A stretch of DNA of 64,000 nucleotides from Corythucha ciliata (taxonomy: Eukaryota; Arthropoda; Insecta; Hemiptera; Tingidae): NCBI GenBank assembly GCA_038030265.1, contig CM075943.1, positions 7,874,001 to 7,938,000 on the forward strand, read 5' to 3'. Within the stretch, counting starts at the first letter, position 1. Every line of letters begins with the position of its first letter. The notes beneath the pieces are model-generated. The model saw only the letters and a program-made list of their open reading frames with translations, ran no database searches and had not been told where the DNA came from. Shown here piece by piece: positions 2,718 to 58,066 of this stretch. The position numbers and the translations under genes are program-made.

Positions 2718-4190
2718 CATGCGCGGATCCAGAGAGAGGCTCAGGGGGCTTGAGCTCCGTCCTTTGGGGCAGCACTCGATAGGTGTTCAGGGTCCCACGC
2801 CCATTAATGGTCCGTTTAGCCAGCTTCATACGGTTGGAATAGTCAACCAACCAAGTTTACAGCACGAAAGTTGTCAGTTTATACAGTCGACCTTAAGGTG
2901 CATGCAACCAATGCTATGGTGGGGGGAGGGGAGAAAGGTCGACTAGTCAGTAAAGTGAGGACGACCCATGGATCGGTTTATTAAAGGGCGTGAATAGCCA
3001 TGTTTGCCCATTTTTCGGTTGTATATAGCCACTTTGAAGGCGTGAATCGTCGTCTGTAGTCTCTGTAGGGGTTCAGTTTGAACATTTTTAGACCGCGTGG
3101 TGATTTCTTTGCCATATTTGCGGCGCTGAAAAGTACGCCAGTATGTAATTTTTAGGGCGTAAATAGCAAGTTCTACTATTTTTAGTACAGGAATCGGCTT
3201 TGTCGACTTTAGACATTTTAAAGGCGTGAAGGCTCAGTTTGGGCATTTGACGCGCAAAACGGTCGATTTCACCATTTTCTGGACAGGAATAATCTGCTTA
3301 GGGCTTTTCAAAACGAGAATCGTCAGTTTCAAACATTTATAGGCCGCATGTAGAGTTTAGCTTTACCAATCTTATAGGGCTTGAATAGCCAAAACGATAT
3401 TTTAAGTTCACGAAACCGTCAATTTAATCAATTTTAGAGTGCTTACCGTTAGTTCAACCATTTTGTATGGTTTTTGGAGCGAGAATTATTGTCAATATGG
3501 CTGTATTTAGGGAGAGAAATTGCCAGTTCAGAAATTTTCTACAGACGTTAATGGATCAGGCGCGAATCGTCAGTTTTGCCGATTTCATGGCTTAAGGCTT
3601 ATGGATATAATCAGTTTTGGGGGACGCTTATAGTCATGAGTTTTGTTATTTATGTGGCGCTAATAGCACGTTGTGCCATTTTTGGCACCCAAATGGTAGA
3701 TTTTGCCATTTTTAGGGCAGAAATAATCTAGTCGGGTGTTTTAAAAACGCGAATCGCCAATTTTTTTACTTTTAGGGCGCAATTAGTTCTGTCAAGCCAA
3801 GACGCAATTGATCAGTTGGGCCATTCTTGGAGCGCGAATAGAAGGTTTTTGCAGTTTTCAGGGCAGGAATGATCTGTTGAGGAATTTTCAGAGCGAAAAT
3901 CGTCAGCTAAGCCATTTTTATTACGACGATATTTTCAGAGCGGGATTTTTAGGGCTTTGTCGCGGACGGGCGTGAAGTCATTTTGACTGTTTTCGAATGG
4001 GATTTCCAGAGCACAAATAGTAGGTTTGGTCCTTTTCAAGGCGGGAATCGCCAGTTTTTCCATTTAGGGACGTAATTGTAGACGGTTTATCCGTTTTTAT
4101 GGCGGGAATAGCAGTGAATGGCTGTCAAACCGTCTTTAGTCAGAGCGAAGCACACAATCTCTCCATGAGCCAATCCTGGATCCTCGTCTG
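2718..4190. mobile_element. non-autonomous hAT-like element filled with ~30-bp degenerate phrases (family 1)
   Basis: The left end reads CATGCGCGGATCCAG and the right end reads CTGGATCCTCGTCTG, an imperfect terminal inverted repeat. GGCTCA follows at comparable depth on both arms. The flanking octamers are GTCAGTTT (2710-2717) and GTCTGTTT (4191-4198), a 7/8 match of the 8-bp size typical of hAT insertions. From about 2990 to 4110 the interior is a run of loosely repeated phrases of roughly 30-33 bp built on GGGCGNGAATCGTCAGTTT and GCCATTTTTAGG. There is no transposase ORF. The right-hand end sequence (GGCTGTCAAACC, then an AGAGCGAA block) recurs in inverted orientation near 15890-15945, so this is a family. 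The hAT assignment is inferred from TSD length and terminus style. Confidence 0.6.
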
Positions 4191-16808: not shown

Positions 16809-17640
16809 ATGAAATCGTAAGTTTTGGAATTAAAACAGTCAGTTTTGGGGTAAAATGGCCAGTTTTGTATTAACGTCATCAGTTATGGGGCAACGCGTCA
16901 GCTTTGGCGTGAAATCTTCTGTTTTGGTATAAAATCGTCACATTTGCGATGAATTTGCCATTTTTTGTTGTGAAATCACCTGTTTTCAAGGCAGAATGGT
17001 CTAAAATCACCGGTTTTGAGGAAAACTTGAGTTAAAGTGTGACATTGTCAGTTTTGGAGTAAATTACAGTTTTGTGGTAGCATCTTCATTTTGAGAGGGG
17101 GGGGGGGCACGTCAGACATGGCCAGGAATTGTCGTTTTTTTTTTGTTTTGTTTTTTTTTTGTTTTACTAAAATCGCCAATTGAAGGATATAATCGGCAGT
17201 TTGTAGTACTGAGTGGTCTGTTAATTGTAATTAAGATCATTTTTTAAAACCCGTTTTGGGTTAAACCTGCCATTTTTAAGCGGAATTCACCAGTTTTTGG
17301 GGTAAATACTTGGATTTTAAAAGTTGTGCTGTGAAATGTTTAGTTTAGGCGTAAACACTTCGTCTTTGGCGTAGAAACGTCTGTTTTGAAGTAAAATATT
17401 CAGTTATACTATAGTGAAATATTCAGTTTTTTTGTTAAAAAACGTCGGTTTTGAGTTAAAACCTGTTATTGTTTGGTTAAAAAATGTTCAATTTTTACGT
17501 CTCTCAGACAAGACGTTGATGAAAAGACGGTCACCCCGTATATTTGAATGCTAAGTAACGATTTCCGGGGAAATCGAATTGTCTGTGTGTGTTGAATGTG
17601 GTCGTCACCGAAGCCAACAGTGACGGAGTAGTCACAGTGA
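16700..17640. repeat. family 4 degenerate phrase array (~21-bp period), copy A
   Basis: Phrases of the type GGGGTAAAATCGTCAGTTTT and TGAAATCTTCTGTTTTGG recur at roughly 20-22 bp with many changes. The array ends at a TGAC/GTCA-rich terminal region (17600-17680, CACAGTGAC repeats) that abuts LINE sequence. It is the interior of the hAT-like element seen whole in copy B (32545-33698). No ORF. Confidence 0.6.
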
Positions 17641-29813: not shown

Positions 29814-31639
29814 AGCTTCAGCAACCATTTTATATTAGTAAAAGCAGTGTTTTTTTTTCTCCCTCGCATTTTTATCTCATGGAAATCCTCCGTAGCTATA
29901 AGGGCTAGGGAAATATTCCACTGCGTCTCGCCTACTCTGCATGCTTCTATCTATTGTCCTCCATTCCTCCTCGCCCTTCTCAACAGTGTGGTTGTTAGCC
30001 CGGGTGAGCGATAGTGTCTCATACACTCAATCCCCCCCCCCTCTCTCTCTCTCATCCACAATCCTCCCCACCCTCATAAACTCCCGTTTCATTCTAAGCC
30101 AGGAACATTCTCGCAACCTCCCCACCGATGTGAAGCATTTCTTCCTCTTGACACTCCATAACGAGAGGACGTATATAGAGGAGTAGAGGGATTGATGTAA
30201 CTGGAATGTGCTGTCGTGAGAGAGTGTGAGGGGGGGGGGCATGGAAGTTTCATCCAATATCGACGACACATTGCTCTGGTACATATGCGTATAATGTGGC
30301 CTCTTTAGCTGAACTGTGTCGCTCGAAAGAAAAACTTTGCTTTACGTGAAAAATGTTAGGAGGCATCTTTTTCTTTTTTTTTTTTTTACATCAACGGCGG
30401 AAGTGCGCAATTGAGTTTACATAAAAGCTTAAATCATCGTTCCCTTGCTTCAAGACAAAATAAAAAGAAAATAACAGAACAGAAAACAAAACTTTGCCAA
30501 AAAAAAAAAAAAAACTTCCACTTCACACTTTTTTGGGCTTATTTCACTTTCTTCTTGTGGAAAGTATTGTTGCTTGTTTTAACTTGGTTTCAAGTTAAAC
30601 TGTCAGTTCCAGAACCAACCCCCAGCGAGTATAATAGACCCGAAAAGGCCTTAATAAAGTACTTCAACGGTTTATATCTCACGTTGTTGCTGGTATAGCA
30701 CGTTATTTTGTACTAGCTGAAAACGATAAACAATTTTGCAGAAACAATAATGACGATATTAGTGCATTTGTGTGCAAAAAAATCGAATTATTCTTTTACT
30801 TTATTTTTTTACGCGGACTAGATATATGTATGATTTACGTAATCTCCAAGGGGGTAGAAAAGGGTATAATCGCAATATAAGCATCTGGGGGCCTTTGGCT
30901 ATTTGGCAGAGCCTTGGCTTTAACGCCTCTATACTGCTCCCACGGGTACTACTACAAAACTTGATATTTTCCTTTTTCCCAGTTTTTTCTCCCACCCGCG
31001 TCTGGCATATGTCTTTTTTTTTGAAAAGCATCGAAATGTTTACTCCCTCAAATCTAGTTTTTAAATGGAACGTTTTCTTTATTTGTTTATTCGGGTGTAT
31101 AGGGCAATATTTTGCTTCTTTGAAGTTTATTCTTTCAACAGGGAACCGTATACCGAGGTATTGGCGAGGGGGGTGGACTGCCATGGTCCCCCTGAGTGCG
31201 TGGCTAAAGATTTTATTCAGCCCACGAAAGCGCTATTCTGAAGGCTCAAATTGAGAGAAATCTCACCTTCTGGAGCTAACTGCGCGGCTAGAATAGAGAA
31301 AATTACGCTGAACCTAAGTTGCTTTAGGCCTTTAAAGCTACTGTTACCACGTACTGGGGCAAGTACGCGACAAAAAGTTTGTAAAACGAAAAAGCGCTCA
31401 TTCGTGGTTTTTCAATGCAATTTTCAGACCAAAGTTGATGAAAAATCGCTGTTTCGCGGTGTACAGATTCCCTTTTGTAGAAAAGTGACTGTGTTCTGTG
31501 TTCGGCCAACCTCGATAGCATGCTTGTTCGCTCGGTCTGTTTGTTCTTCCTCTGGGGGTAGTTTCGTTGTACTGCGTATACTAGTATTTTGGAGACTTTG
31601 TATTCGGAAAGACGAATCGGCCTTGCGAAAAGAATATTG

Positions 31640-32050
31640 AGTGTATATTATAAGCCCTAAGAGAGCGTTTAGGGACTATTTCCAGCCCTCAACAAAACAG
31701 TTGCAAACTTGTGAATTAGTGGATATTTAGCCCCGAAACTTGCGATTTAGTGGATATTTAGCCCCGAAACTTGCGAAATTCATTTATATCTTGCACCAAA
31801 TGATGCAATTTTGTGACCATTTATCACACTTTGGGTGCTCTAGGAACCAGCTGATGTGGAACGAAGTATGAGCATCCCGAAACTTGCAATTTCTTTTTTT
31901 TTATTTATTCATTTATATGCGAGCCCAATAACAAAAATTATAAGTTGAAATAAGTAGGTAGTGCACGTATATAAGAAAGGGGGGATACCGTGAACATAAA
32001 ATAACAATAGGTATTGTGAAATAATAACCAACGAAACTAGATAGAAACAG
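31640..32050. repeat. family 5 phrases with a 34-bp tandem pair, copy B only
   Basis: A 34-bp unit (TTAGTGGATATTTAGCCCCG plus AAACTTGCGA) occurs twice in tandem within about 31710-31785, and its start also overlaps a preceding AACTTGTGAATTAG. CCCGAAACTTGCAATTTC recurs at 31878. These phrases resemble those at 4830-5460. No gene. Confidence 0.5.
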
Positions 32051-32122
32051 ACGAAGGTGCTATCAAAGATTTTAAACGGCAAACGGTGTGAGAAAAAAAG
32101 TCAAATTCAGGGGACAGGCATA

Positions 32123-32242
32123 AAGGCCCGTTCTCAAGTTCTATGCAACCAAACACATTGTTTCCCTCGAAAAATGAAGCATTTTTATATGTTGCATAGA
32201 CCACCAAACAACGAAAACATAGAGCTTGTGAACGGGCCTTAA
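32123..32242. mobile_element. short MITE, ~120 bp
   Basis: AAGGCCCGTTCTCAAGTTC near the left edge is mirrored by GAGCTTGTGAACGGGCCTT at the right. This gives about 24-bp inverted repeats with a few mismatches. It interrupts or abuts the end of the LINE RT C-terminus. Confidence 0.55.
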
Positions 32243-32544
32243 ACGGGGAATCCTAATCAGTGGGCGGTTGGATAAATAATTCGTACGGCAAAAAGGAACA
32301 TGAAAGAGCAAAGGAGAACGTGTGGATATTCGAGGAACCAAGAGACCAATCTCCGATAACAAAGAAGAGCAGTTTATTTGACCGTTCATCAGTTTGTGGA
32401 AGAAAGAGAGATCGGCGAAGCAGCGTCTTTTTCCAGCGGAAGCAGGCCGCAAGTGGCTTGTAAGAACGAGTAGTCGACCTCACACTGAGGAATATTGAGC
32501 TTGAAGGCAATGAATCTCAAAAATTCATTTTGCACCCTCTCCAA
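32243..32544 (-). pseudogene. LINE RT C-terminal domain, copy B
   Basis: The minus-strand reading LERVQNEFLRFIAFKLNIP, followed in a shifted frame by FADLSFFHKLMNGQINCSSLL and VPFCRTNYLSNRPLIRIPR, is the C-terminal region found after RT in Jockey/CR1-like LINEs. It continues the minus-strand LINE that stops at 33699 (LEYASLVWSPFYAVHKYS); the two pieces are separated by a hAT-like insertion. Copy A lost this part. Confidence 0.75.
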
Positions 32545-33698
32545 TAGAGGTGTGACGTGACAGCTTTTGTCGGTCACAGTGACAACTAGCTCCGGTGACT
32601 GTGCAGTCACTGTGTCAAAAACCAGTGATTTTGTCACTTAAGGGACTACTGAGGGCCTGTTCTATAGCTTTTTAATGTCACTATCACTGTTTGTTTCCAC
32701 CGTCCTCCCCATCAACATGTGATTTAAGGATATTCCTAGGAACCCTGAAATCTTACAGGACAGGCCCCCTGTAGCAGTTTGTTGGGTGTGGTTGATTCCC
32801 AGACCCAAACAAAGCCTATTAATAGGGCAAATGAAATCGTAAGTTTTGGAATTAAAACAGTCAGTTTTGGGGGTAAAATGGGCCAGTTTTGTATTAACGT
32901 CATCAGTTATGGGGCAACGCGTCAGCTTTGGCGTGAAATCTTCTGTTTTGGTATAAAATCGTCACATTTGCGATGAATTTGCCATTTTTTGTTGTGAATC
33001 ACCTGTTTTCAAGCAGAATGGTCTAAAATCACCGGTTTTGAGGAAAACTTGAGTTAAAGTGTGACATTGTCAGTTTTGGAGTAAATTACAGTTTTGTGGT
33101 AGCATCTTCATTTTGAGAGGGGGGGGGGCACGTCAGACATGGCCAGGATTGTCGTTTTTTTTTTGTTTTGTTTTTTTTTTGTTTTACTAAAATCGCCAAT
33201 TGAAGGATATAGTCGGCAGTTTGTAGTACTGAGTGGTCTGTTAATTGTAATTAAGATCATTTTTTAAAACCCGTTTTGGGTGTTAAACCCGCCATTTTTA
33301 AGCGGAATTCACCAGTTTTTGGGGTAAATTACTTGGATTTTAAAAGTTGTGCTGTGAAATGTTAGTTAGGCGTAAACACTTCGTCTTTGGCGTAGAAACG
33401 TCTGTTTTTGGAAGTAAAATATTCAGTTATACTATAGTGAAATATTCAGTTTTTTTTTGTTAAAAAACGTCGGTTTGAGTTAAAACCTGTTATGTTTGGT
33501 TAAAAAATGTTCAATTTTTACGTCTCTCAGACAAGACGTTGATGAAAAGACGGTCACCCCGTATATTGAATGCTAAGTAACGATTTCCGGGGAAATCGAA
33601 TTGTCTGTGTGTGTTGAATGTGGTCGTCACCGAAGCCAACAGTGACGGAGTAGTCACAGTGACAAAATCACCGACAGTGAAATCACACCTCACCTCTA
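32545..33698. mobile_element. hAT-like element with family 4 phrases, inside a LINE (copy B)
   Basis: Both ends read TAGAGGTG in inverted orientation, followed by TGTGA and CACTG/CAGTGAC-rich subterminal sequence. The interior (32836-33510) is the ~21-bp GTAAAATCGTCAGTTTTGG array. The LINE protein reading is continuous on either side once it is removed. I could not see an 8-bp target duplication (flanks CTCTCCAA and CAGAGGCT), so the superfamily is tentative. Confidence 0.55.
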
Positions 33699-38726: not shown

Positions 38727-39139
38727 CTTATTACACGAGCATATATTTCACTTTCCGACGAGTAATGAACGACGTTTTTCGCACGACGATGGGGAATTTA
38801 TAGGCAGGTACTCATTCTGGAAATGTTATGGTATTTACGTGAGAAACCCAAATACAGTGAACAAACCAACAGGCACAGACAGGAAGAGGAACAAACAAAA
38901 AACAATAACAATAACGTCATATCACAGAATACAAGTTGAGACCTTCAAGAGAACATAATCTGTGGACAGCAAACATTGGTTAACTGTAAAAAAAAAAAGA
39001 AAAGCCAAATCAGATGTTCTCCTAACACACACCCCCGTGCCTTTTTCGTTTTTTCCGCACGGGTTGACGAAAACAGACACTTTCGAGGGAGGTTTTCAGT
39101 GCGGTTCTCTTCACTTCCCGTGCAACTCGTGCGAAAAAT

Positions 39140-39724
39140 GCCTTTATGTGCCTTGAAAAAATAGCTAAACTGACGATTGGCGTCATAAAAATGTTTGAAC
39201 TGCCGATTTCTACTCTGAAAATGGCAAAACCGTGCAATCGCGCTCTGAAAATGGTCATATAGACTGCTCCGCGCACACCATTCAAAATGACAAAACTGAC
39301 AAGTCATGTCATAAAATAACCAAACGCCCAAAATGCCCTAAAAAATTTCAATCTTCAAAGTGTTTCGCTCAAAAATAGTAAGACTGGTCATTCGCGCCCT
39401 TTGGAAAGCGATTCGCCCCTTGAAAGTGGCTAAACTGACTGATCTGCGCCAAAAAAGGCCATAGCAAAAGGCTGATGGCAAAAAAGGGCCATTGTGTCTC
39501 ATACTAAGACCCTAAAAAAACTGACTGAACTGAGAGATCCAAGCCTTGAAAATACTTAAACAGACGATCATGTGACCTGGAAGTGGCAAAAACGACCATT
39601 CGCGCTCCAAAAATGGCCTTGAAAATGGTTGAATTTTGTCCTATAAACTGTTAATATCATCCTTGAAACTGTCAATTTCGACCTAGATACTATCAATTTA
39701 CTCCTACATTACTGCCAATTTTTT
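39140..39724. repeat. family 1 phrase array, copy B, left of the large insertion
   Basis: Same as 23105-23687. It is bounded on the right by the octamer CTTACAAA (39725-39732) and resumes after the second octamer at 48596. Confidence 0.65.
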
Positions 39725-40168
39725 CTTACAAATAGGGATGGAATCGGGCCGGGCCGGGCTTCGACTCAAAATCGGCCCGGCCCGAGGCCAGACGTTTGCG
39801 GCCCGGCCCGAAGCCCGGCCCGAGTTTTTTACGCTTGCATAAATAGAGCATAAATCTGCACTCAAATGCAATGGCTAAACAGCCCGCATTCCACCAATCA
39901 CATGTACTTCGAGAGCGAGGAAAAAACACCAAATATGTGAGGGAGAAGAATTTTTCACAAAAGCACGCCTTTGCCTTGAACAAACGCTCGCTGTGTGGCT
40001 GTTGAGCTTTTTCGATTCACACACTCTGGTGGACATTTCTCCCACAAGTCGGTGGGGGGGGGGATTGGACTAGACTCACGTCTCCAAGGGTAGCACAATA
40101 AGCTACCTATAGGCTTCCTTGCTAAGGGGAAATTGCCCCCGCCCACCAGATGAGATTGACCAGACGTA

Positions 40169-40528
40169 GACTTGAGCTTTTTGGTGAAAAGAGGTAATCT
40201 CTCCATGTTTAAAGAGTCTTTATTTCTTAATTTGTGACCGTGGTTTCGGTCGACTATACCATCTTCAGATAAGGTTTAGGGCGTAAAAACCACTCTCGCC
40301 ACATGACTTTTACTAAAACGAGCCGTGATCACAGGCTACACATGAGCCTGTCGGATTAGCCTGTGATCACTGCTCGTTTTACTGAAAGTCGTGTGAAGAG
40401 GGTGGTTCTTACGCCCCAAACTTTGTCTGAAGATGGTCTAGCTCTACTGGACCGAAACGATGGTCACGAATTAATAAAGACACTTCAAACGTGGAGAGAT
40501 TAGCCTTTTTCACCAAAAAACTTGAGTC
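40169..40528. repeat. long foldback repeat, copy B
   Basis: Same inverted arrangement as 24140-24499, with near-perfect arms of about 165 bp around a 20-nt loop. Confidence 0.8.
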
Positions 40529-40668
40529 ATCCAAACTGCACTATCTCACCTCGCATCAATACAATGAGACGATCAATGAGATTGAAAAACGCTCGTCTCC
40601 AGGAAATTCCGCACTCGCGTATGATCTTGCTTTCCTACATAAGTCGTCGAAAAAGCGAGAATTTTCAA

Positions 40669-42421
40669 TAGTGATGAGCAAAAATGGTCTTGGTCTTCTC
40701 GCGAGACTCTTGCAGCAAGACCAAGACTAAGACGCAAGACCAAGACTCTCTAACGGCTGCAAGACCAAGACTTGAAATGCAAGACCAAGACTTTCTACAA
40801 GACCTTACGAACATGTCTTGCGCGAGACCAAGACTGTGTTGCAAGAGTCTCGCGAGTCTTGCAAAAAGAAGTTCTGCTTTTAAAAACCGAATTTTGTGGA
40901 TTTTGCTCTTCCAAGAACACATTTTGCTGATTTGGCTCCTTTAAAACCTAGTTTTGGCGATTTTTGCATCATCGCAAAAACACATTTTCGTGGCTTTAGC
41001 TCTTTATTTATTCTAGGAAGAAAAAGAAGAAATGAAGGAGGGAAGAAGGTTTTCGGTTGGTTCCAAAAAGAACGACATTTTGTGATTTTGGATTTTTCTA
41101 ACCCCAATTTCACCGGAAATTTTCAGTCTGCCATCACAAAAGTCTCAGAATTGGCACCTACAAAATCCAATTTCACAGATTCTTGCCATTTTGGACTCCG
41201 CAATTTCGCGAATTTACCCGTTATTAAATACCAAATTACGTAGTTTTAGCTCTTATTGAAATCAGTTTTTTACAGATTTGGCTCTTCAGAAAACTTATTT
41301 AGCTCTTTTCAAACCCCAAGTTCTGGATTTGGCTCAATTCAAACCCAAATATAAATGCCCCAATTTTTGTATATTTAAACTCTTTCAAAACGTAATTTCG
41401 TGAATTTGGCTCCTTCAAAAACTCACAGATGTTTGCCATATAAAAACAAACGTGAGTTTGGCTCTTTCTGAAATCTGTTCCACGGGATCGGCTATTTATA
41501 AAAACTAAATAGTCGAAAAACGAAAAAAACTAATTTCGTGATTTTGGCGCTCAACCATATTTTCGCTCTTCCACAACCAAATGTCACTGATTTTGCCCCT
41601 TTGATACCAAACTTCACGGATTTTAGCCATTTAAATTTCCAGCCATTCTAATTTCGCGCATTTTTATTATTTAAAAAAAAAAAATCGATTTTTGTGGCCT
41701 TTGTTCTTTCTGGAATCAGTTATACAGATTTCGCTGTTTCGAAAACCAAATGTTGCTCTTCCAAAAAAGAAATTCACGGATTTGGCTGGTTCAAATACCA
41801 AATTTCGTCATTTCGGCCATCGGCTCTCATATACGTCAGTTTCGTGGATTTCCGCTCTTTCATAGTCAAATTTTGCGAATTTGGCTCCTAAAAACTCCAG
41901 TTTTTGGAAGTTTTGCTATTTCAAAAGCCAAATTCACATCCGCGCGTTAAAACCCAATTTCTTGGATTTGGCACCTTAAAACCAATTTCGGCGATTTACG
42001 CTTTATTAAAATCAGCTGTTCCTTACCAGATGGACAGGTTTGGTTCGTTCAAAAAAGTAATTCAGCTCATTTGAAACCCAAATTTCGTTATTTTGGCCTT
42101 CTCAAACCACACATGGTTGCAGAAGGGTGGGGCAGGTTACATTTTTTTCAGTATACGGCGAGATATGAAGGAAAAATACGAAGAACATCCAAAAATATCG
42201 GAGGTGGGGATAAATGAATAAAACTGAAAAAAAGAAATTTTTCATTTCATAAGTCCCGAACTAGGTTGTTTTTCAGTTGTTTTTTCGATATGCAATGCAA
42301 TTGTTTCCTTCAAAAAGAACAACAAAAACAAAAAACGAAAGACAGACCACTCGAAGTAAATACGAAAAAAATTGAATCAACAAAGCAAGACCAGCAAGAC
42401 TCTTGCCTTTCCTCATTACTA
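40669..42421. mobile_element. hAT-like element with family 3 phrase array (TSD ATTTTCAA)
   Basis: Ends TAGTGATGAGCAAAAATGG and, inverted, TAGTAATGAGGAAAGGC. Perfect octamers ATTTTCAA lie at 40661-40668 and 42422-42429. The left subterminal region has four exact GCAAGACCAAGACT words (40715, 40734, 40759, 40779) and an inverted TCGCGAGACTCTTGC pair. The right end has GCAAGACCAGCAAGACTCTT. 40870-42100 is an array of ~30-31-bp phrases (CCAAATTTCGTGGATTTGGC with a TTCAAAAA lead). There is no ORF of note. Confidence 0.8.
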
Positions 42422-42788
42422 ATTTTCAAGATAAAAGTTTATGTGGGTTTTACAGTTATTTCAGGAGTGAAACATGAAAAAAGATCGTACGCACGTGCAG
42501 AATCTCCTGGAGATTTAAATGAGGCCTTGATATCCAGGATTGGTGCAGAAATACGGAATAATTTTACGGAACCTACAATTTTCCGATTTTCGTGGTGATA
42601 TTTTACGTAATGCCGAGTAAGCGACGTATGCTTGGAGGGGGTCCCGGAAACACATGTACAAGTCTCCCTTAACCGCGTACAGTTGAACAATTAACAGGGA
42701 ATTTTGCGTCCTGTTCCTCCACAAAAACTGACAGCACAAACGACAGACCAAAGCAGTGGCGTTACGAACGATCCATGCGCTTGGGGAT
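42422..42788. other. interior DNA of the composite element
   Basis: Includes the right octamer of the nested element and ends with TTGGGGAT (42781-42788). A minus-strand frame at 42439-42690 ends in a Cys/His-containing stretch (SKHTSLTRHYVKYHHE) that loosely recalls a zinc finger. I do not consider that sufficient for a transposase call. Confidence 0.35.
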
Positions 42789-43140
42789 CAGGGGTGGGCA
42801 AAATACTTTGAAAATGTATTTTAAATACAAAGCCCAAAATACTTTCAAAAATGTATTTTAAATACTGAAATACAAATACTTTTTGAATTGTATTTTGAAT
42901 AAAATACAAATACAATTTAAAATACTTTTCAAAAATTCGATTTCGACGGCAGATAGTGCGAAAAACACGAAAAATAAATAATTCAAAAATATCAGGTCCT
43001 TCAATAGACAAGTTGACAAAATATAGCAGCGCGAAATGGCGCTGCGCCGCGATGCGCAAAGAAAAGTAGGCAATTTGTCACGAAGTAATTAGTACCGAAC
43101 CGGCGAGCACTGGTGGATCGTGAGCTGAAAAGGAGGTGAG

Positions 43141-43510
43141 GTCACTCCCTAGGCCTTTTCCTAATTTTAGCCACGGCCTTTTCCATATATTGTAGGCAAA
43201 TTACCGCTATTTCCACAGTCTATCCGCTAAACAGCGCTTATGCCAAGTTTAAACTGCGAATTTCTCCATTTTAGCCGCGAATGAGTGCTTTTAGTCAACT
43301 TTAACAGCAAATTAGCGCTTTTCGCCGCAAATTAGCAACTGATTAGCGGGGTAATCCCCCCCCCCCACAATAAATACATAATATGCGCTTTTCCCCAAAT
43401 TTAGCAGCAAAGTAGATTTGGTATCTGTGAATCAGCGATGTTTCTTCAACTTTCCTCGAGTTGGCGTTTTCCACAATTTTAGCTGCAAATTAGCGATTTT
43501 TTCTAGCGGT
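43141..43510. repeat. family 2 phrase array, left of VAC14
   Basis: Phrases like TTTTAGCCGCGAATGAGTGC and CAAATTAGCGCTTTTCGCCG at a period near 29 bp, with a C-run near 43356. The array stops where the VAC14 5' untranslated sequence begins, at about 43520-43545. Confidence 0.6.
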
Positions 43511-43635
43511 TTACTTAGTATGAGCTGAAAATTACTCAACGTTTGAAGTGCTTCTCTGGAAAGGTCCGAGCTGTTTAATTGGTGTATGAGTTTTGATTTT
43601 AATAAAACTAAATGAATTTCGCTCGGTAGTAAGCC

Positions 43636-45528
43636 ATGTCCGAAAGAGAATACGCTCCTTTGAGCATTGCCTGCGTCCGGGCGTTGATAGACAAGCAGTA
43701 CGACAAGAGAAAGGCGGCGACTCTTGAGATTGAAAAAATGGTGAAAGAGTTTGTGGCCGTGAACAACACGGTTCAAATAAGGAAGCTCTTGAAAGTCTTG
43801 GGTACTGAATTCACCATGTCGCAAAATCAGAACTACAAAAGAGGCGGACTCATGGGCTTGGCTGGCGTGGCGCTTGCTCTTGGCAAAGACTCAGCGGAAT
43901 ATACCGAAGATCTTATTCGACCCATTCTCGCCAATTTCACGGACAGCGAGGGTCGAATGCGTTATTTCGCTTGCGAGGCTCTTTTCAATGTGGTCAAAGT
44001 CGCTCGGGGAGCCGTCCTACCCTACTTCGCCGATATTTTTACAGGGTTGAGTCGCCTGGCTGCCGACAATGATCCAATGGTCAAGAACGCTTCGAACATC
44101 TCGATAGATTGATGAAAGACATCGTCACCGAAAACGCCACGTTTGATCTAGTCGGTTTTATGCCTTTGCTGAGGGAAAGGCTTTATTCTAAAAATACTTT
44201 CGCTCGTCAGTACATCATATCGTGGGTTTCTGTATTGTACGCTGTTCCAGACATACAGCTCATCCTCTTTTTGCCTGAAATTCTCGATGGATTGTTTGTC
44301 ATGCTACCTGACGCCAATGTCAAACTTATGTGTGAAAATGTTTTGTCGGAGTTTCTTAGAAGCATCAACAAACATCCTTCTCAAGTTGATTTTTCTAAAA
44401 TGATCAATATTTTAATTAGTCATTCGCAAAACTCTGATGAAACGTTACAGCTGACGGCTTTGACTTGGATCAATGATTTCTTACGTCTATCAGGAGAAAA
44501 CATGCTACCTCACACATCTGGCGTATTATCGGCAATTCTACCATGTTTAGCATATGAGAGTGACAGTAAAAGGAGTATTAAAGAATTAGCGAAGAGTGTA
44601 AATTCTAGTCTCATGGATCTAATTGTGCCTAGCCTGGATGACGCCAGTCAAGAAAAAAACTCTTTGGACCTTCCATCTGTAGTTAGTGTACTGGAAAAAC
44701 AGTTGAGTCATTTCTCAGTGAACACCAGAGTTGCTAGCCTAAAATGGATTCATCATTTGCATTCACGAGTCCCCCAAAGCATGCTTGGGGACGCTCTGTT
44801 TCCGTCCCTTCTAAACTCACTATCAGACAATGCTGACGAAGTTGTTCAACAGGCCTTAACTGTTCTGGCTCAGATAATATCGACGCCCCAGCTCTGCCAT
44901 CGTCCACTCAAAAAATGTCTCCTTATTTCGATAAATTCCTCGTTAGTTTAGTAAAATTATTTAGGGAGGATCGACAACTTCTTGAAGAGCGAGGCTCCTT
45001 CATTATTCGACAGTTGTGCACGCTATTGAGCGCGGAGGATGTGTATAAAAATGCTGCTGAAATCATCAGCTCCGAAAAGGATTTGAAATTCGCACGAGTT
45101 ATGATCGACACGCTCAACACTATTCTTTTCACATCCTCCGAACTGTACCACTTGCGCACAAAATTGAAAAATGAATCCAGTTCCGATCTATTTGAAAGCC
45201 TGTACCCTTCCTGGTGTCACAACTCCGTGGCGACAATTTCATTATGCCTTTTAACTCACAATTACCAACACGTTTGCGATCTCATTATGATACTAGCTGG
45301 CTATGAAGTTACCGTCGAATTCCTCGCCGAAATCGACAGATTGATCCAGTTGATCGAATCACCCATATTTATGTATTTACGCCTCAAAACTACTACCTCA
45401 TTCGGTCAATGTACAGCCTTCTCATGCTGATTCCGCAATCTGAGACGTTTCATCTCCTTCGCCAAAGGCTCGAATGCATTCCTAAAGTTCAAGACCTTGC
45501 CAATGATAATAAGGTAACGCCGAATTGA
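43636..45528 (+). pseudogene. VAC14: VAC14 retrocopy (PIKfyve/Fab1 complex scaffold), intronless, frameshifted
   Basis: VAC14 is the HEAT-repeat scaffold that binds the PIKfyve/Fab1 kinase and the FIG4 phosphatase on endosomes to control PI(3,5)P2. The ATG at 43636 opens 158 residues matching the family N-terminus (ALEIEKMVKEFVAVNNTVQI, ACEALFNVVKVARGAVLP). A one-base loss near 44085-44100 shifts to 44109-44951 (MKDIVTENATFDLVGFMPLL). A second shift near 44890 leads to 44915-45430 (GSFIIRQLCTLL, MIDTLNTILFTSSELYHLR, SPIFMYLRL). A third, with a small deletion near 45380, leads to YYLIRSMYSLLMLIPQSETF and a stop at 45526-45528. No introns over 1.9 kb and a poly(A) tract 170 bp downstream indicate a processed retrocopy. 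The usual far C-terminus is missing. Confidence 0.9.
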
Positions 45529-45720
45529 AACAAGTACGCTAGTATTGAATTTGACAATCTGAGGAAGCATTTCATTTCGATTCAAGAACTTCATAAAACG
45601 TCAATATAACAGTAATTAATTTCAAATTAAATTTGTACATTCCACGTTGTTAATTATTACACGGCAATCAATGGTTAAAAAAATGAAATCTCACCGTGAA
45701 AAAAAAAAAAAAAAAAAAAA
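45529..45720 (+). other. 3' untranslated sequence and poly(A) tail of the VAC14 retrocopy
   Basis: An A-run of about 22 bases (45699-45720) follows 170 bp of AT-rich sequence. No AATAAA is visible in the last 40 bases. Directly after the run, TATATTAGCCGTAAAATTC returns to family 2 phrases. Confidence 0.75.
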
Positions 45721-47340
45721 TATATTAGCCGTAAAATTCTCGAAATGTTTACCACAAATTAGCATTTTTTGTTCACCGTAACCTTCACTGCGGAATAGTG
45801 ATTTCATCTCAGTTTTAGCCGCGAATTTGCGAGTTTTTCACTCATAGCCGTAAATTAGCGCTTTTTCGTAATTTTAGCAGTGCAGTAGCTATTTCTAGCC
45901 CGTGTATTAGCGAATGTTGTTCATTTTAGCTACGAATTGGCGTTTTCCGATTATTTACTGCAAATCGGCAATTCTTCCATTTTTTACAGTGAATTAGCAC
46001 TTTTTGTTTCAATTTAGGCTGAAAATTAACTTTTCTCTTTATTCTAGCCAGAATAATTACTGATTTTCTCTATATTTGCCGCAAATTGGCACCGCATTAG
46101 TAATTTTTTTCAATTTTAATCATATGTAGAATAGGGCTTCATCTCAGTTCTAGCCGTGAATCAGTGTTTTTTCTTTTACTTACAACCATTGAATTTGCCG
46201 TTTACCTCAATTTTAGTCACAAAGTTGTTGTCAGAAGGCGGAATTAGTAATTCCAACACACTTTATCCGCGATTATTTTCCTCAATTTTAGCCGTAAATT
46301 CGCGTTTTTTTCAACTTTAGCTGCTTTGAAGCGTTTCTATAATCTGTGAATTCGCGAATTACCTTAGTTTTTCAGCCACGAATTTGTGATTCCCTCAAAT
46401 TTTAGCCGGGAATAACACTTTTTTCCAATTTGAGCTGAAAACGAGAGTTTTTATTTATTTATGACAGGCTAATTATAGTGAATTTTTCAATTTTAGCTTG
46501 GTATTTTTTACACTTCAGTCCCACGTTGGCATTTTTCCTTCAATTTTTGCTATGCATTAGCGTTTATTGTTTAGTTTTAGCCTCGAACAGAAGCTACGCA
46601 TTTGCGTTTTGTCAATTTTTCAAGGTTTAGTGATTTTGTGGGTCGCGCTCTCTTCGGTATACAAAATAACGGCCAACGAAAAATTTAGAGATCTTTTTTA
46701 TAACGACAATGAAAAATTGGGAAAATACGAACTCGCGATCAATCTGACTAATGTTGTTTTTTTGACATAATATTTGTTATTTTAAAAAATAAAAATTGAG
46801 GTTTGTTAGCTGTTGGCACGCTACAACTTTAACCAATTTTGGCCACGGGTTAGCGCTTTTAATCAATTTTAGCAGTGCAGTAGGGATTCTTTCGTTTGTT
46901 TGGCGATTTTCATCTGCAGTTTAGCCATTTTTTAGCAGCCAATTAGCACTTTTTTCTCAGTTTGTTGAGTTGAAAATTAGTGTTTTTCTTAAAGTTGGCC
47001 CCGCTAATTAATATTTTTGTCAATTCTAGCCGCGTAGTTTTTTTTATAGGTTTTAGCCCGCGTGAGCAATTTTTTTCTACGGATTAGCGCTGTATTTCTC
47101 AGTTTGAGCCTCGATTCTTTCAGAAGCTATACAGATTTTCGTTTTCTCAATTTCAGCCGCGAATTATTGATTTTTCTTCATTTCAGCTGTGAAATAGCGT
47201 TTTCTGATAATTTTGCAGCAAATTAGCACATTATCTATTCTCTTTTTTTTTGTTTATTAATAGGCGATTTTTCACCATTTGAGTTGTGAATTTGCCATTT
47301 TGGTCCAGTTTGAACTCGAATTAGCGTCGTTTTTCGCAAT
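45721..47340. repeat. family 2 degenerate phrase array, right of VAC14
   Basis: More than fifty loosely similar phrases (AATTTTAGCCGCGAATTAGC, GCGCTTTTTTC) at a period near 29-30 bp, none identical to its neighbours. The short open frame at 46567-46770 is part of this array and not a gene. Confidence 0.65.
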
Positions 47341-47771
47341 AATTGCCACGAGTTTTGTTTACTTGTACAGCTTTGTGCACTTGTAGGCTAGGGCTCTGTA
47401 TGTTCCATTTTTGTGCAAAGTTTCCATCCGCTAGCATCATTTTTGCGGCAGTTGTGCTAACAAGGAATTCGGAACTTCCACCTCCCACCATGACTACCCT
47501 TCCCTCTCCACTTTTTCGAAAAATGAAAACGTCAATCGAAGGCTGTTATTACACTGGGTTTTTGTGCCAAATATGTTGTCACTAAGTTAGGTTATACTGG
47601 TGAATGGTGGCGAAGAAGTGAAAACTAAAGAACGTTGAAATTAGAAGTATTTGTATTTGTATTTTCGTTGAGTGTGAAATACAAAATACTTTTGAAAATG
47701 TATTTCAAATACAAAGCCCAAAATACTTTCAAAAATGTATTTTAAATACTCAAGTATCTTGCCCACCCCTG

Positions 47772-48494
47772 TTGGGGATTGAGCGCTGGTTGTCGTATGC
47801 TCTGAGAAAACCCCTTGATTGTGAGTTTGAGGCTTCAACAGACAAAAAAGCAAGAACGTAGCGGGAACCCCCCCCCCCCCACCAATCATACCCCTACAAA
47901 GTAAGGACATGCATGCGAAATTTAATGTCCCCTCCCAAAAATGTTTTTTGGATCCGCTTCTGGGTAAACTGGAAAATTTCTCGTACCTTAGTTTCTACTA
48001 TTATAAAAAACTGGGGAAATTCGCGTCTATTAACCCCACGAAACATGTAATTTCATTTTTACGACGCCTGTTCGACCGAGAGATTACACTTGCCTCTTTA
48101 GTCTTCCTAACAACTGGAAAATTTTCCCTCATTATACATATAATCCATGGAACTGGTCTTTTAATGATTTTTTTATGGCGAAAATGAGCATTTGCGAGCT
48201 TGTGGCCTACCAAACTGGGCATTTTAACAACGCCCTTCCTATCGCGAAACTCCATCACTCATCTCTTTCATCATTCTATCAAACTCGTTTGACTACTAAA
48301 ATGGAGGAAAAAAGCGAAGTAACAAATAAAACGAGGCGAGTATAAAATGTGCATTGTTGTAGAATTACCCAAGAAAATTTAATATATTATTCATAATGGT
48401 ATAGTAAGTGAAGGTAGGACAAAAAAGAGGACGAGTTGACGTGAGGTAATGACCGACAAACGTGGGGGGGGGGGGTTGCAAAATTTCCGAGTCG
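47772..48494. other. interior DNA of the composite element, right side
   Basis: Starts with the TTGGGGAT octamer. It contains a C-run at 47869-47880, a TTGGATCCGCTTCTGGG word (47949-47965) like the ends of family 1 elements, and a G-run at 48464-48475. No gene recognised. Confidence 0.4.
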
Positions 48495-48595
48495 GGCTTC
48501 AGCTCTCAGCCCGGCCCGGCCCGAGAAATCTGCGGCCCGACCCGAGCCAGGAACCCTCGGCCCGGCCCGAGCCCGAGGCCATCCCTACTTACAAA

Positions 48596-55087: not shown

Positions 55088-58066
55088 ATGAACACATTAC
55101 ACAATAACTTGGAATGGTTTGATGTAGTCACAGAAACTGAATGTTCTACTGTTAATGATTTGAACATAACTTTAAAGAATAATACAAGCTTCCTAATTTT
55201 GTGTACTAATATAAGAAGTATTCAAAAAAATTTTGATGAATTTATTATTAATTTACAACAAATAGGCAGAAAACCTGATTTTATTTGCTTAACGGAAACG
55301 TGGAACAGTTCTCAATCTATAATTCAGAGCATACCTGGCTACTGCTCTATATCAAGTTCTCTCTTCTACAATCAAAACTCAGGTGTTATTGTATTTTACA
55401 GGGACAGTTGTCGAAACGTCAACTCGACTGAAGTCCAATTAGAAGGAGGTAACTGTATTATTACGAATTTTGATTTCAGGGGTCATCCATTTAGAATTAT
55501 AGGGTTATATCGCTCTCCTTCGTCAAACGAAGTCGGAAAATTTGTGGATCAAATTGTGCAGTTGTGCGGCAACAAAGGGGTGAATACTATTGTGATGGGT
55601 GATACCAATATTGATACCTTAGACTCAGACCTAAACACAGCGAGTAAACTGATTCTGTTGAATGGTATGGCTGAAGTTGGTCTTACACCATACATCTCGC
55701 GCCCAACAAGGATACAAGGAGATAAAAAATCCTGTATTGATCAAATTTTCGCTCGGCCATCCAGGCATTTTGATGCTGAAGGTATAATCTGGCAATCTAC
55801 CGTAACGGATCACTTCACCTCTCTTCTGAAGCTGGCTTTTGAAACCAAAATCGAAAACTCCAATACAATTGGGCGTCCAGAAAGAATTGTAATTGACTAC
55901 AACCTGTTGGGGGACAAATTGGGCGACGAAAAATGGGAGCGTGTTCTTAACTCGTATGACGTAGACGAATGTGCGGAGGCGCTTCACAAGATTTTGCAAG
56001 ACTGTATCAACTCCTGTACTTCGAAAAAGCAACTGTTGTCACATAAGATGACCTCCTTGAAACCGTGGATCACACCTGGCTTACTGAAAAGTATCAGGAA
56101 AAAAGAAGTGTTATACAACAAAATCAGGAAGTCTCCTTTTGATCAGGCACTCCGCAAGCATTTCAATAAGTACCGTAATAAGTTGACCTCATTGATCAGA
56201 CAGGCCAAAAATTCGTATTATGAAGCTCGATTGGAGTCAGCAGGTAAGGATTCAAAGCAGGTATGGAATGTTGTGTCCGAAGTTGCTCCAACCTCCATGC
56301 GAGGCAAAAGAAGAATTGATTCATTGATCGACGATTCCACAGGAACTGTTGTAAAAGTTGAAGACGACCCTGTTGAAGTTGGGAATTTGTTAAATCGCCA
56401 CTTTACTACAGTCGGCGGGAAAATAGCTGGAACCATTGGTCAGTTATGTGATGGTGTTCAGCCAATGGATGATCACGAGGCACCTCCAGATTTCCTGTGT
56501 GACCCTTTCTTCACGGTGAGTTCCAGTGAAGTTTCAAAAATTATCGAGAGCTTAAGAGGTGGTTCTTGCCCTGGTTTCGATGGAGTGACAGTAGCCATGT
56601 TGAAAAGATTCAAAAGTCATTTAAGTGAGCCTCTAACATATTTAATAAATTTAAGCTTTGCGACCAAGAAGTTCCCCTCCCTTTACAAGGAAGCCATTGT
56701 AGCTCCACTGTTCAAAAATGGAGACCCCAGAAGAGCAGAAAACTATCGTCCCATTTCCCTTTTGTCAAATATTGCTAAGGTAATCGAGAAGGCTGTCAAA
56801 TTATACCTTACCCGTTTTGTAGAGGACGAAAAGCTGCTGAGTGAATTTCAATTTGGGTTTCAAGCTAACAAGTCAACTCAAGATGCTATCGCCTTTCTTT
56901 TCAGTCAAATTGAAAGCAGCCTCGATAAGGGTCGGAAAGCTATGGCAATATTTATGGATCTTACCAAAGCCTTCGACACGGTTTCACATAAAAAACTTGT
57001 CCAAGTCCTTCGAAATGTTAGTATGAATGAAAGTTTCCTTGAATGGGTAACCAGCTATCTCGACCTACGATTGCAACGCGTCAAAATTGGAAGTCATCTC
57101 AGCGACGCCCGAACTTTTCAGTATGGAATCCCGCAAGGAACTGTATTAGGGCCTATTCTCTTCGTACTTTATGTCAATGGATTATTTGGACTTAAACTAG
57201 AAGGACAACTGGTTTGCTTCGCTGACGACATAGCTCTTATACTCTGCAACGACGCTTGGGATCGCCTTCTGCGAGCGGCTTCTTCTGATCTCAATAAGAT
57301 AAACGCATGGTTTTCCGAACATGGGCTGAAGTTGAACTATACCAAGACAAATTTCATGGCGTTCGCGTTCAGACCGAACGATGTCCCTGTGATCGGAAAC
57401 TTGGCCGTACATTCGAACGCTTGTCAGCAATCTCTCACTGTAAATTGTACGTGTCCCTCCGTCAAACAAGTTGCTGAAACAAAGTATTTGGGAATGTTGA
57501 TAGATCAGAATTTAAATTGGACTGCTCATGTTAATTTCCTCAATTCTAAACTGAGGAAGCTTATACCAATGTGTTATGAAATTAGAAATTTCCTTAACTT
57601 CAAAGCAAAAAAAATGGTCTATTATGGTCTTGTACAATCGCTAATTGTATATTGTTCCGCAATTTGGGGCTGTGCCTGGCCGACAACCCTCAAAACAATT
57701 GAAGTTTCACAGAAAACGCTAATTAAAATCCTCTGGAGAAAGCCTCGGCGATACCATTCTGAAAAACTTTTCAAGGAAATCAATGTGCTTTCTTCCAATG
57801 ATTTAATTGATAAAATTTCAATAATTCAAGTTTTTAAAATGAAAAAAAATATTAGTAAGTTTGAAATAGTTGATGGACCTACGCGATCTTCAAACAAAAT
57901 GCTACTAAAACTGCCTTTCAAAAACACTTCTACCTGCCAAAAATCCCTAGATTATAGAGGAGTTAAATTGTTTAATGAGATACCAGAAAATATAAGAAAA
58001 ATAACCGAACTGTCAAAATTTAAGAGTGCCTTAAAAATTTACTTTGCGACTAGAATGAGCCTATAA
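55088..58066 (+). CDS. LINE ORF2 protein, APE endonuclease and reverse transcriptase
   Basis: 992 residues, uninterrupted. The endonuclease occupies about residues 35-250: LTETW with Glu70, GLYRSP at 139, GDTNID at 171-176 and TDHF with the catalytic His242. It nicks the target so that its 3' end primes cDNA synthesis. RT lies at about 500-790: ENYRPISLLSNIAKVIEK, FMDLTKAFD (622-630), GIPQGTVLGPILF, the catalytic FADD (711-714) and the KYLGMLID thumb block. The C-terminal part ends in the usual LFNEIPENIRK and FKSALKIYF blocks. All catalytic residues I can check are present, so the element may be able to move. Confidence 0.92.
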   Translation: MNTLHNNLEWFDVVTETECSTVNDLNITLKNNTSFLILCTNIRSIQKNFDEFIINLQQIGRKPDFICLTETWNSSQSIIQSIPGYCSISSSLFYNQNSGVIVFYRDSCRNVNSTEVQLEGGNCIITNFDFRGHPFRIIGLYRSPSSNEVGKFVDQIVQLCGNKGVNTIVMGDTNIDTLDSDLNTASKLILLNGMAEVGLTPYISRPTRIQGDKKSCIDQIFARPSRHFDAEGIIWQSTVTDHFTSLLKLAFETKIENSNTIGRPERIVIDYNLLGDKLGDEKWERVLNSYDVDECAEALHKILQDCINSCTSKKQLLSHKMTSLKPWITPGLLKSIRKKEVLYNKIRKSPFDQALRKHFNKYRNKLTSLIRQAKNSYYEARLESAGKDSKQVWNVVSEVAPTSMRGKRRIDSLIDDSTGTVVKVEDDPVEVGNLLNRHFTTVGGKIAGTIGQLCDGVQPMDDHEAPPDFLCDPFFTVSSSEVSKIIESLRGGSCPGFDGVTVAMLKRFKSHLSEPLTYLINLSFATKKFPSLYKEAIVAPLFKNGDPRRAENYRPISLLSNIAKVIEKAVKLYLTRFVEDEKLLSEFQFGFQANKSTQDAIAFLFSQIESSLDKGRKAMAIFMDLTKAFDTVSHKKLVQVLRNVSMNESFLEWVTSYLDLRLQRVKIGSHLSDARTFQYGIPQGTVLGPILFVLYVNGLFGLKLEGQLVCFADDIALILCNDAWDRLLRAASSDLNKINAWFSEHGLKLNYTKTNFMAFAFRPNDVPVIGNLAVHSNACQQSLTVNCTCPSVKQVAETKYLGMLIDQNLNWTAHVNFLNSKLRKLIPMCYEIRNFLNFKAKKMVYYGLVQSLIVYCSAIWGCAWPTTLKTIEVSQKTLIKILWRKPRRYHSEKLFKEINVLSSNDLIDKISIIQVFKMKKNISKFEIVDGPTRSSNKMLLKLPFKNTSTCQKSLDYRGVKLFNEIPENIRKITELSKFKSALKIYFATRMSL

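Follow-up and report, generated by a model that had tools for sequence, protein, structure and literature searches.

Organization of the locus

The DNA analysed here (the window) comprises 64,000 nucleotides of Corythucha ciliata contig CM075943.1, and all coordinates count from its first nucleotide. It holds three non-autonomous hAT-like elements (E1, E2 and E3) and several arrays of short, degenerate phrases. An earlier note on this sequence had placed E2 and E3 inside E1, where both are indeed located, and the matching ends and perfect 8-bp target-site duplications (TSDs) that it gave for the three elements are exact at every position. The features are listed below, with the strand in brackets; TSDs and the inverted repeat are unstranded.

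2718..4190 (+): further element, inverted ends CATGCGCGGATCCAG / CAGACGAGGATCCAG, TSD with one mismatch
2981-4115 (+): 30-bp phrase array inside the 2718..4190 element
32545..33698 (+): further element-like unit, TAGAGGTG ends, no matching 8-bp TSD
32832-33518 (+): 20-bp phrase array inside the 32545..33698 unit
39130..39658 (-): array of the 2981-4115 phrase family, lying upstream of E1
39725..39732: E1 left TSD CTTACAAA, exact 8 bp
39733..48587 (+): E1, outer hAT-like non-autonomous element, ends TAGGGATGG, subterminal words GGGCCGGGCC
40178..40528: imperfect inverted repeat (~79%) in the E1 left part
40661..40668: E2 left TSD ATTTTCAA, exact 8 bp
40669..42421 (+): E2, hAT-like non-autonomous element, ends TAGTRATGAG, subterminal words CAAGACCAAGACT
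40869..42123 (+): E2 phrase array, ~44 units of 30 bp, consensus TCTTTCAAAAACCAATTTCGCGGATTTGGC
42422..42429: E2 right TSD ATTTTCAA, exact 8 bp
42781..42788: E3 left TSD TTGGGGAT, exact 8 bp
42789..47771 (+): E3, hAT-like non-autonomous element, ends CAGGGGTGGGCAA, subterminal words AAATACTTT/GTATTT
43156..43503 (+): E3 phrase array, left part
43540..45720 (+): Vac14 copy without introns, inserted in the E3 array; broken reading frame, poly-A at 45699-45720
45722..47378 (+): E3 phrase array, right part, ~56 units of 29 bp, consensus TTTTTCTCAATTTTAGCCGCGAATTAGCG
47772..47779: E3 right TSD TTGGGGAT, exact 8 bp
48588..48595: E1 right TSD CTTACAAA, exact 8 bp

Similar arrays with element ends had also been proposed at 2718-4190 and 32545-33698: the first does show inverted ends and a TSD with a single mismatch, while the second has the TAGAGGTG ends but lacks matching flanking octamers. 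A 16-kb tandem duplication in the window had escaped the first reading.

Pairs of exact 8-bp TSDs and 12-bp inverted ends are not rare in themselves, since a scan for them returned 15 pairs in the window and 5-16 in ten simulated windows; E1, E2 and E3 stand out because their ends are of hAT type and because other copies in the genome confirm them. Terminal inverted repeats of hAT elements begin with C/T-A-G-N-G, and the ends of E1, E2 and E3 follow this pattern. The 8-bp TSDs typical of the superfamily are perfect in E1, E2, E3 and a further E3 copy (L042), and mobility is documented by multiple copies in different targets and by empty sites. Inverted ends, TSDs, dispersed copies and empty sites together support the identification as non-autonomous hAT-like elements.

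No transposase domain was detected in the 20 of 59 interior open frames that were scanned (frames of at least 55 aa), where the best weak match was to Reprolysin (E 0.0041, below the curated cut-offs), and on these 20 frames the idea that the interiors are decayed transposase was rejected. Within the window there was no RNA-family match at gathering threshold. Elsewhere in the genome, all 150 scored PF05699 places (655 candidates) were above the cut-off, and among those 150 none was tied to E1, E2 or E3 ends. One PF05699 place on C6 follows an E2 left end at a distance of 4.3 kb downstream and is a candidate autonomous partner of E2; the fetched stretch showed no E2 right end that would link the two.

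Spread of the E1-E2 composite

Excluding the nested elements, E1 has ~2.1 kb of sequence of its own. The phrase array that had been attributed to it is not found there: its three non-nested pieces gave no ~30-bp signal except at lag 32 (z 3.5) in the right piece. It had also been described as interrupting an array, which is clear upstream (39130-39658) but at chance level downstream, with a score of 23.3 against a null maximum of 24.0. Of the 20 fetched E1 loci, nine have the E1 right end; the TSDs of these nine copies all differ from one another, seven being perfect and two having one mismatch. The search for other copies that the earlier note had proposed produced E1 copies whose TSDs are different, sites empty of E2 and of E3, and many copies of E3.

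In all 12 fetched E2 loci, among them the window and its own duplicate, E2 lies directly after the E1 left part; the E2 site is empty in 2 of the 36 loci scanned, a count in which the site is not covered by every locus. The shared site and the empty sites show that E2 entered an ancestral E1 a single time, before the composite spread, and that the composite was amplified afterwards. The nest does not stem from three local events, E3 being the element that entered the window's own E1 copy.

The E2 array is collinear with that of the window in 15 of the 20 fetched E1 loci (z 15-49). Its divergence, for which 15 of 20 loci were used, was 3.1%, compared with 1.6-3.2% for the E1 parts of the same copies. 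Positions in A/T runs diverge as much as G/C positions within the array (2.7% and 2.8%) and faster than A/T-run positions in the E1 parts (0.7-1.8%). Since it diverges no more slowly than its flanks, the E2 array is a neutral passenger that drifts like the rest of the composite, a statement on neutrality that applies to E2 only.

E3 and a mobilized Vac14 retrocopy

The E3 site in E1 is empty in 12 of 36 loci scanned, with the same incomplete coverage of the site. The right array of E3 was found in at least 40 places at 89-100% (window included; the other 39 at 89-98%), and 26 of the 40 matches listed run from position 127 or less to 1921. Among listed matches, 7 of 40 E3 left ends lie at most 7 kb from one of 40 right arrays, a pairing that does not itself test a link, both sets being the best 40 listed. 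One of three further left ends read onward (L051) continues into other sequence, with no array in its first 1 kb.

The insertion in the E3 array of a processed copy of Vac14 mRNA had not been noticed before. In three differently flanked E3 copies (the window, L046 and L047) the Vac14 copy occupies one and the same junction, and the site is uninterrupted in three others, L042 (2832 bp, perfect TSD CTTAGGAC), L052 and L053; both E3 ends were seen for the window and L042 only, and one end each for L046 and L047. An intron-bearing parental gene lies elsewhere, on C4; its fetched part has 11 inferred introns, of which 7 are removed exactly in the copy and 4 have uncertain edges. Fragments of the copy match arthropod proteins (Timema, Nesidiocoris, Araneus), full-length relatives being outside the length range of the search. 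The lack of introns and the poly-A do not fit capture by gap repair of genomic DNA.

An E3 loaded in this way is what inserted into the window's E1 copy. The uninterrupted sites and the single shared junction show that, in an animal, a cut-and-paste element has multiplied a spliced gene copy, with two copying systems acting in series. Compared with the window, L046 and L047 have 28 and 37 mismatches in the right array and 14 and 24 in 2100 positions of the Vac14 part; arrays that differ more than the adjoining gene copy give no sign of selection on the phrases.

Structure and abundance of the phrase arrays

The arrays of ~30-bp phrases are real and, among E1-E3, are carried by E2 and E3 only. 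Wrap-around profiles scored 582 for E2, 602 for the right part of E3 and 537 for 2960-4110, whereas nine simulated controls, three per array, scored 113-183. Each element had been credited with a different phrase family; that of E2 is indeed not clearly related to the rest, but those of E3, 2718-4190 and 32545-33698 are related to each other and on the same strand, and E1 has none.

As in minisatellites, a single phrase is repeated in head-to-tail units, here ~70% identical to their consensus. Unit divergence is star-like, without excess likeness between neighbours, in 7 of 9 arrays, a small excess being present in the L016 and L023:6495 arrays. In 259,838 bases, no array with a 15-35-bp unit reached both 85% matches and 4 copies. 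The nearest to a young array were a 31-bp, 4-copy, 84% stretch in L016, a 130-bp, 2.1-copy, 94% duplication within the L028 array and a 31-bp, 2.4-copy, 92% stretch at 31705-31777. Judged by neighbour likeness and by young arrays, the homogenization characteristic of satellite DNA was not observed. Outside E1-E3, phrase arrays account for 19,424 of 141,408 unmasked bases (13.7%), a share that refers to E1 neighbourhoods.

Origin and dispersal of the arrays

We consider it probable that non-autonomous hAT-like elements disperse old, helically phased minisatellite arrays as cargo. Old, mostly star-like minisatellites of ~30 bp would have entered the ancestors of E2 and E3 and have since travelled as cargo of both, the travelling itself being directly observed. 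E1, E2 and E3 may have been mobilized in trans, by hAT transposases that their own genome encodes. E2 inserted once in an ancestral E1, the composite was amplified as a unit and the Vac14-loaded E3 reached the window's E1 copy. With similar arrays widespread in the sampled parts of the genome, hAT transposition would be one dispersal route.

A possible though less probable explanation is that every array is the interior of one in a succession of array-carrying DNA transposons that have lost their ends to decay, the phrases descending in element lineages. Elements that differ in their ends do contain related phrases, and the array at 2718-4190 is flanked by element ends. Next to the L044 copy of E3 lies an array collinear with that of E3 (74-75% over ~1.1 kb), and L022 and L023 contain strongly diverged arrays, at 56-61% (z 5.7-8.1), that remain collinear with E3 or with the 2981-4115 array. 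Collinearity in these three loci would fit descent from older array-carrying elements and not the capture of free arrays. However, most outside arrays share the phrase without its order, and a scan of 54 arrays for strict ends plus an exact 8-bp TSD gave 4 of 54, all of the E2 lineage, against 0-1 for random intervals; under relaxed settings the figures were 6 of 54, again all E2 lineage, and 2-4 of 54. Arrays as general hAT interiors were accordingly rejected for these 54, there being no excess of ends with TSDs beyond the E2 lineage; the scan misses E3 and 2718-4190 themselves and is therefore conservative.

Selection on the phrases for DNA shape, with A/T runs at each helical turn setting chromatin much like the Periodic An/Tn Clusters of C. 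elegans and with their carriers escaping germline silencing, appears doubtful to us. In its favour is the phasing itself: the AA/TT power peak at 10.25 bp averaged 8.3 in 26 non-redundant arrays of the 54 and 1.7 in 260 control pieces, with 18 of the 26 above the 95th percentile of the controls. A 10-bp harmonic was present in all seven phrase profiles tested (p 0.0008-0.0144; several from one phrase family), periods cluster at 29-31 and ~20, and the star-like divergence of the units would also be in line with it. Under a stricter column-permutation control the phasing stood out for E2 (4/500) and the 2981-4115 array (5/500), whereas E3 (33/500) and the 20-bp array (69/500) fell short of significance, and the E2 array diverges as fast as neighbouring E1, its A/T-run positions being no slower. 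We are equally hesitant about a broader version, in which 20-/30-bp phrases would be a large non-coding class, arising degenerate or kept for their A/T runs and loaded on hAT elements as chromatin cargo that avoids silencing; the phrases are two or three helical turns long, and long young arrays were never seen in the sample.

hAT elements have repeated subterminal words, as do E1, E2 and E3, and the earlier note had suggested expansion of such binding words within the elements as one origin of the arrays. This is very improbable: subterminal 8-mers are rarer in the interiors than in simulations for E2 (12 vs 26.5) and E3 (20 vs 42.6), the only excess being in E1 (34 vs 16.1), which has no array; in addition, the same phrases occur outside E1-E3 and the E2 array shows no constraint. 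Least credible of all is that the arrays were pre-existing targets with hAT ends inserted by chance on both sides. Arrays are common near E1-E3, but the occurrence of the same array between or beside the same ends amid different flanks contradicts it both for E2 (15 of 20 E1 loci, all through E1 transposition) and for E3 (L042, L046, L047, L052 and L053, plus the seven left-end/array pairs).

Comparison with known systems

Tandem repeats inside DNA transposons are already known; what is found here is two or more families with different ends filled by degenerate phrase arrays that also fill much of the surrounding DNA. In apparent age the arrays studied are alike, and they have a common helical period; whether they are simply very old satellites spread by transposons or have a role through their DNA shape thereby becomes testable.

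The elements resemble Ds-like and MITE-like non-autonomous hAT elements in their 8-bp TSDs, short CAGGG/TAGNG inverted ends, subterminal repeats, many dispersed copies and no transposase found, and differ from them in that a degenerate ~30-bp array takes up most of the interior of E2 and of E3, and the window's E3 has a nearly complete gene copy. CgHINE of oyster and the DINEs of Drosophila are Helentron/Helitron elements with central tandem repeats (PMC9659126). As described there, they too are non-autonomous DNA transposons that disperse tandem repeats. Helitrons are not known to have TSDs or inverted ends, unlike E1-E3, which do not belong among them; the phrase units are, moreover, only ~70% like their consensus, with no homogenized long array in the sample.

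Tetris and Galileo are foldback elements with internal tandem repeats that have been linked to the origin of satellites (PMC4079207, PMC4168063). They are likewise DNA transposons with tandem repeats inside, as opposed to the family of related short phrases found here, which is abundant outside elements too. They belong to another superfamily than E1-E3 and have another type of repeat. Periodic An/Tn Clusters make up 6-10% of the C. elegans genome (PMC7725773) and are, as described there, non-coding DNA with phased A/T runs. The phasing in our case, which exceeds that of non-array controls but withstands column permutation in only some of the arrays, lies in tandem 20-/30-bp phrases, some in transposons, and the E2 array shows no constraint.

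Among animal Pack-TIRs, hAT-N8_XT of frog has moved host gene sequence to several sites with distinct TSDs, and an ARF6 retrogene lies in MER20 (PMC8277862). E3 shares with these cases, as presented there, host gene sequence in a hAT element spread to several sites, and has the gene between transposon ends together with gene-free copies. It differs in that its insert is intronless and polyadenylated and sits at one junction in three copies, the gene-free copies being uninterrupted.

Nested insertion and spread of E1, E2 and E3

The nested elements of the window inserted in hAT fashion, E1 with E2 inside it spread as a composite, and phrase arrays (tandem degenerate units of ~30 or 20 bp) and a gene copy were transposed together with them. 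The features concerned are:
39733..48587, E1, non-autonomous hAT-like element
40669..42421, E2, a second such element within E1
42789..47771, E3, a third, also within E1
40869..42123, phrase array of E2
45722..47378, right phrase array of E3
43540..45720, intronless Vac14 copy within the E3 array

The exact target site duplications (TSDs) with matching ends that the earlier note described were present for all three elements: CTTACAAA for E1 (39725/48588, adjoining inverted ends TAGGGATGG), ATTTTCAA for E2 (40661/42422, TAGTRATGAG) and TTGGGGAT for E3 (42781/47772, CAGGGGTGGGCAA). Since pairs of exact TSDs and inverted ends are not rare by chance (15 in the window versus 5-16 per simulated window, n=10 simulated), the case for E1-E3 is based on their hAT-type ends and on other copies. 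These were sought in the 400.9-Mb genome (57 contigs, the window lying on contig C7). A 168-bp query from the left end of E1 yielded 191 first-look candidates, of which the best 40 were scored, with 49 matches. The right end was located in 9 of the 20 fetched E1 loci, and the 8-bp TSDs of these nine copies were all mutually different (seven perfect, two with one mismatch); the remaining 11 loci had no right end within the fetched stretch, only 1 kb long in the case of L010. E2 lay directly 3' of the E1 left part in all 12 fetched E2 loci, which were the best 12 by score and included the window and its own duplicate. Among 36 loci scanned, some of which fall short of the sites, the E2 site was empty in two (L016 and L036) and the E3 site in 12, so that the dispersed copies with TSDs and the empty sites proposed beforehand as a check were both found. 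The position of E2 at one E1 site, along with the empty sites, indicates that E2 entered E1 once, that the composite then spread, and that the E3 insertion is specific to the E1 copy in the window. An E3 without the gene (L042, 2832 bp) has a perfect TSD, CTTAGGAC. On contig C6, an E2 left end differs from that of the window in both flanks and interior, and thus E2-like ends are present outside E1 too.

Phrase arrays as cargo

Arrays were scored with a wrap-around profile fitted to each one, which gave 582 for E2, 602 for the right array of E3 and 537 for 2960-4110, versus 113-183 in nine simulated sequences. The proposal that such arrays fill the element interiors was thus upheld for E2 and E3 but not for E1, whose own pieces lacked a ~30-bp signal except in the right piece, where z reached 3.5 at lag 32; the left part of E1 holds a 350-bp inverted repeat (about 79%).

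The E3 right part (1921 bp) was 89-100% identical across the best 40 scored places of 4608 candidates, window included, and 26 of the 40 matches span position 127 or less to 1921. Of the 40 places scored for the E3 left end (162 bp; best 40 of 1192 candidates, window included), 33 matched it at 100% identity, and among the matches listed seven of the 40 left ends were within 7 kb of a scored right array (best 40 each). Three copies whose left end is 100% identical were read further: the adjoining 196 bp were 93-97% identical in all of them, and in two the E3 array comes next. In L051, the third, a different sequence takes over inside some 300 bp, and the fetched 1 kb showed no array. The E2 array was collinear with that of the window in 15 of the 20 fetched E1 loci (z 15-49). 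This recurrence of the E3 right part and of collinear E2 arrays across loci points to cargo rather than growth in place. Expansion of subterminal binding words, given in the earlier note as one possible origin, was not supported for E2 and E3.

Once matches below 88% identity or 60 bp were left out, the E2 array had diverged by 3.1% (506/16,269 sites, 15 of 20 E1 loci), and in the same loci the parts of E1's own sequence by 3.2% (E1m and E1R) and 2.6% (E1L), and the inverted repeat by 1.6%. This similarity to E1 parts, and the fact that A/T runs were not slower (2.7% of A/T-run sites versus 2.8% of G/C sites), mean that the array of E2 drifts as a neutral passenger would.

Arrays outside the elements

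In the E1 neighborhoods (L009-L028 only), 19,424 of 141,408 bases outside the E1-E3 mask (13.7%) scored as array. Most of these arrays have the phrase in common, with a unit order unlike that of E2, E3 or 2981-4115. Clear collinear exceptions were found in L022 (z 5.9) and L023 (z 8.1 at 6495, z 5.7 at 3860), with weaker cases at L021:4074 (z 3.9) and L023:3428 (z 3.4); in L044, an array next to an E3 copy is collinear with that of E3 (74-75% over about 1.1 kb). As for element ends elsewhere, there was no excess of ends with 8-bp TSDs around arrays outside the E2 lineage; 2718-4190 is nonetheless bounded by inverted ends and by a TSD in which a single position mismatches. The duplicate copies 15132-16809 and 31387-32834 differ by kilobase indels in and around phrase arrays.

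Related profiles on the same strand were found for E3, 2981-4115, 15903-16717, 39130-39658, 4567-4806 and the 20-bp array 32831-33520 (0/40 column permutations reached the observed value, except for the pair 4567-4806/20-bp array, with 3/40); E3 versus 2981-4115 scored 15.7, the null maximum being 11.8 in 40 column permutations. The E2 profile showed no clear relation to the others (4-13 of 40 permutations), barring 39130-39658 (0 of 40). The idea of a different phrase family in each element is therefore only partly upheld.

Apparent age and possible helical phasing of the units

Units were 68-77% alike to their consensus in nine arrays, and in seven of the nine adjacent units were no more alike than distant ones, with a small neighbor excess in L016 (0/300 permutations) and L023:6495 (10/300). 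Across 48 arrays, E2 copies counted in, identity to the array's own consensus was 0.59-0.83, and 259,838 bases contained no array of 15-35-bp units that reached both 85% matches and four copies. Some later turnover is evident in L016 (31-bp unit, 4 copies, 84%), within the L028 array (130-bp duplication, 2.1 copies, 94%) and in the window (31-bp unit, 2.4 copies, 92%). With no phrase model, a strong period appeared in 40 of 818 600-bp windows, E2 copies being counted repeatedly, versus none when shuffled; the lag was 29-31 bp in 31 of them, 20 bp in three and another value (13, 17, 18 or 36) in six. In 26 arrays (54 minus copies and short ones), AA/TT power had its maximum at 10.25 bp, with a mean of 8.3 versus 1.7 in 260 control pieces, and exceeded the control 95th percentile in 18. 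Under column permutation within arrays this peak stayed significant for E2 (4/500) and 2981-4115 (5/500), and lost significance for E3 (33/500) and the 20-bp array (69/500).

The arrays are most likely old minisatellites with phased A/T runs turned cargo of hAT elements; the phrases are probably old, the arrays would have entered the elements, and transposase would be supplied in trans.

A Vac14 retrocopy inside E3

Vac14 domains were recognized in open frames at 43636-45430, the reading frame being broken, and the copy is terminated by poly-A. The parental gene (contig C4, in L048) has 11 inferred introns in the part fetched, seven of which are exactly missing from the copy, the edges of the other four being uncertain; over about 1800 exon bases the two differ by 9 mismatches and 10 gaps, exon edges counted. 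The junction in the E3 array is identical in the window, L046 and L047, and the site is uninterrupted in L042, L052 and L053. Flanks differ among the three loaded copies, although L046 showed its left end alone and L047 its right end alone. No clear TSD was found for the retroposition of Vac14 itself. Compared with the window, L046 and L047 had 1 and 5 mismatches in the left flank, 14 and 24 in 2100 of the Vac14 part, and 28 and 37 (about 1.9%) in the right array, whose larger difference may reflect exchange with other E3 arrays.

Processed copies were observed in the window (43540-45720), L046, L047 and L045, the first three inside E3 elements; that of L045 (contig C5), the fourth intronless one, is rearranged. 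A 668-aa open frame was noted at C3:48.985 Mb. The Vac14 copy also contains the junction of a ~16-kb head-to-tail duplication (11066-27862/27863-43888, 97.9% over 11 kb), which may be genuine or may reflect two haplotypes that overlap in the assembly.

Transposase, literature and other contents of the window

All 150 places scored for PF05699 were above the cut-off, so that the genome holds at least 150, and none of those scored was linked to E1-E3. At C6:3895327-3899838, a hAT dimerization domain follows 4.3 kb downstream, on the same strand, of the E2 left end whose interior differs, which makes this a possible autonomous relative.

Among the open-licence literature matches listed (Repbase and subscription literature being outside this scope), there was no report of hAT elements full of degenerate phrase arrays. 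Published work describes animal Pack-TIRs, among them a hAT example found with three distinct TSDs and a retrogene of ARF6 within MER20 (PMC8277862), Helentrons that propagate tandem repeats (PMC9659126), and PATCs making up 6-10% of C. elegans (PMC7725773).

Three further features of the window lie at 55088-58066, 58648-61086 and 17917-18477:
992-aa open frame for a LINE-type reverse transcriptase and endonuclease
gypsy-like polyprotein, 812-aa frame
further apparent reverse-transcriptase fragment, recognized by eye
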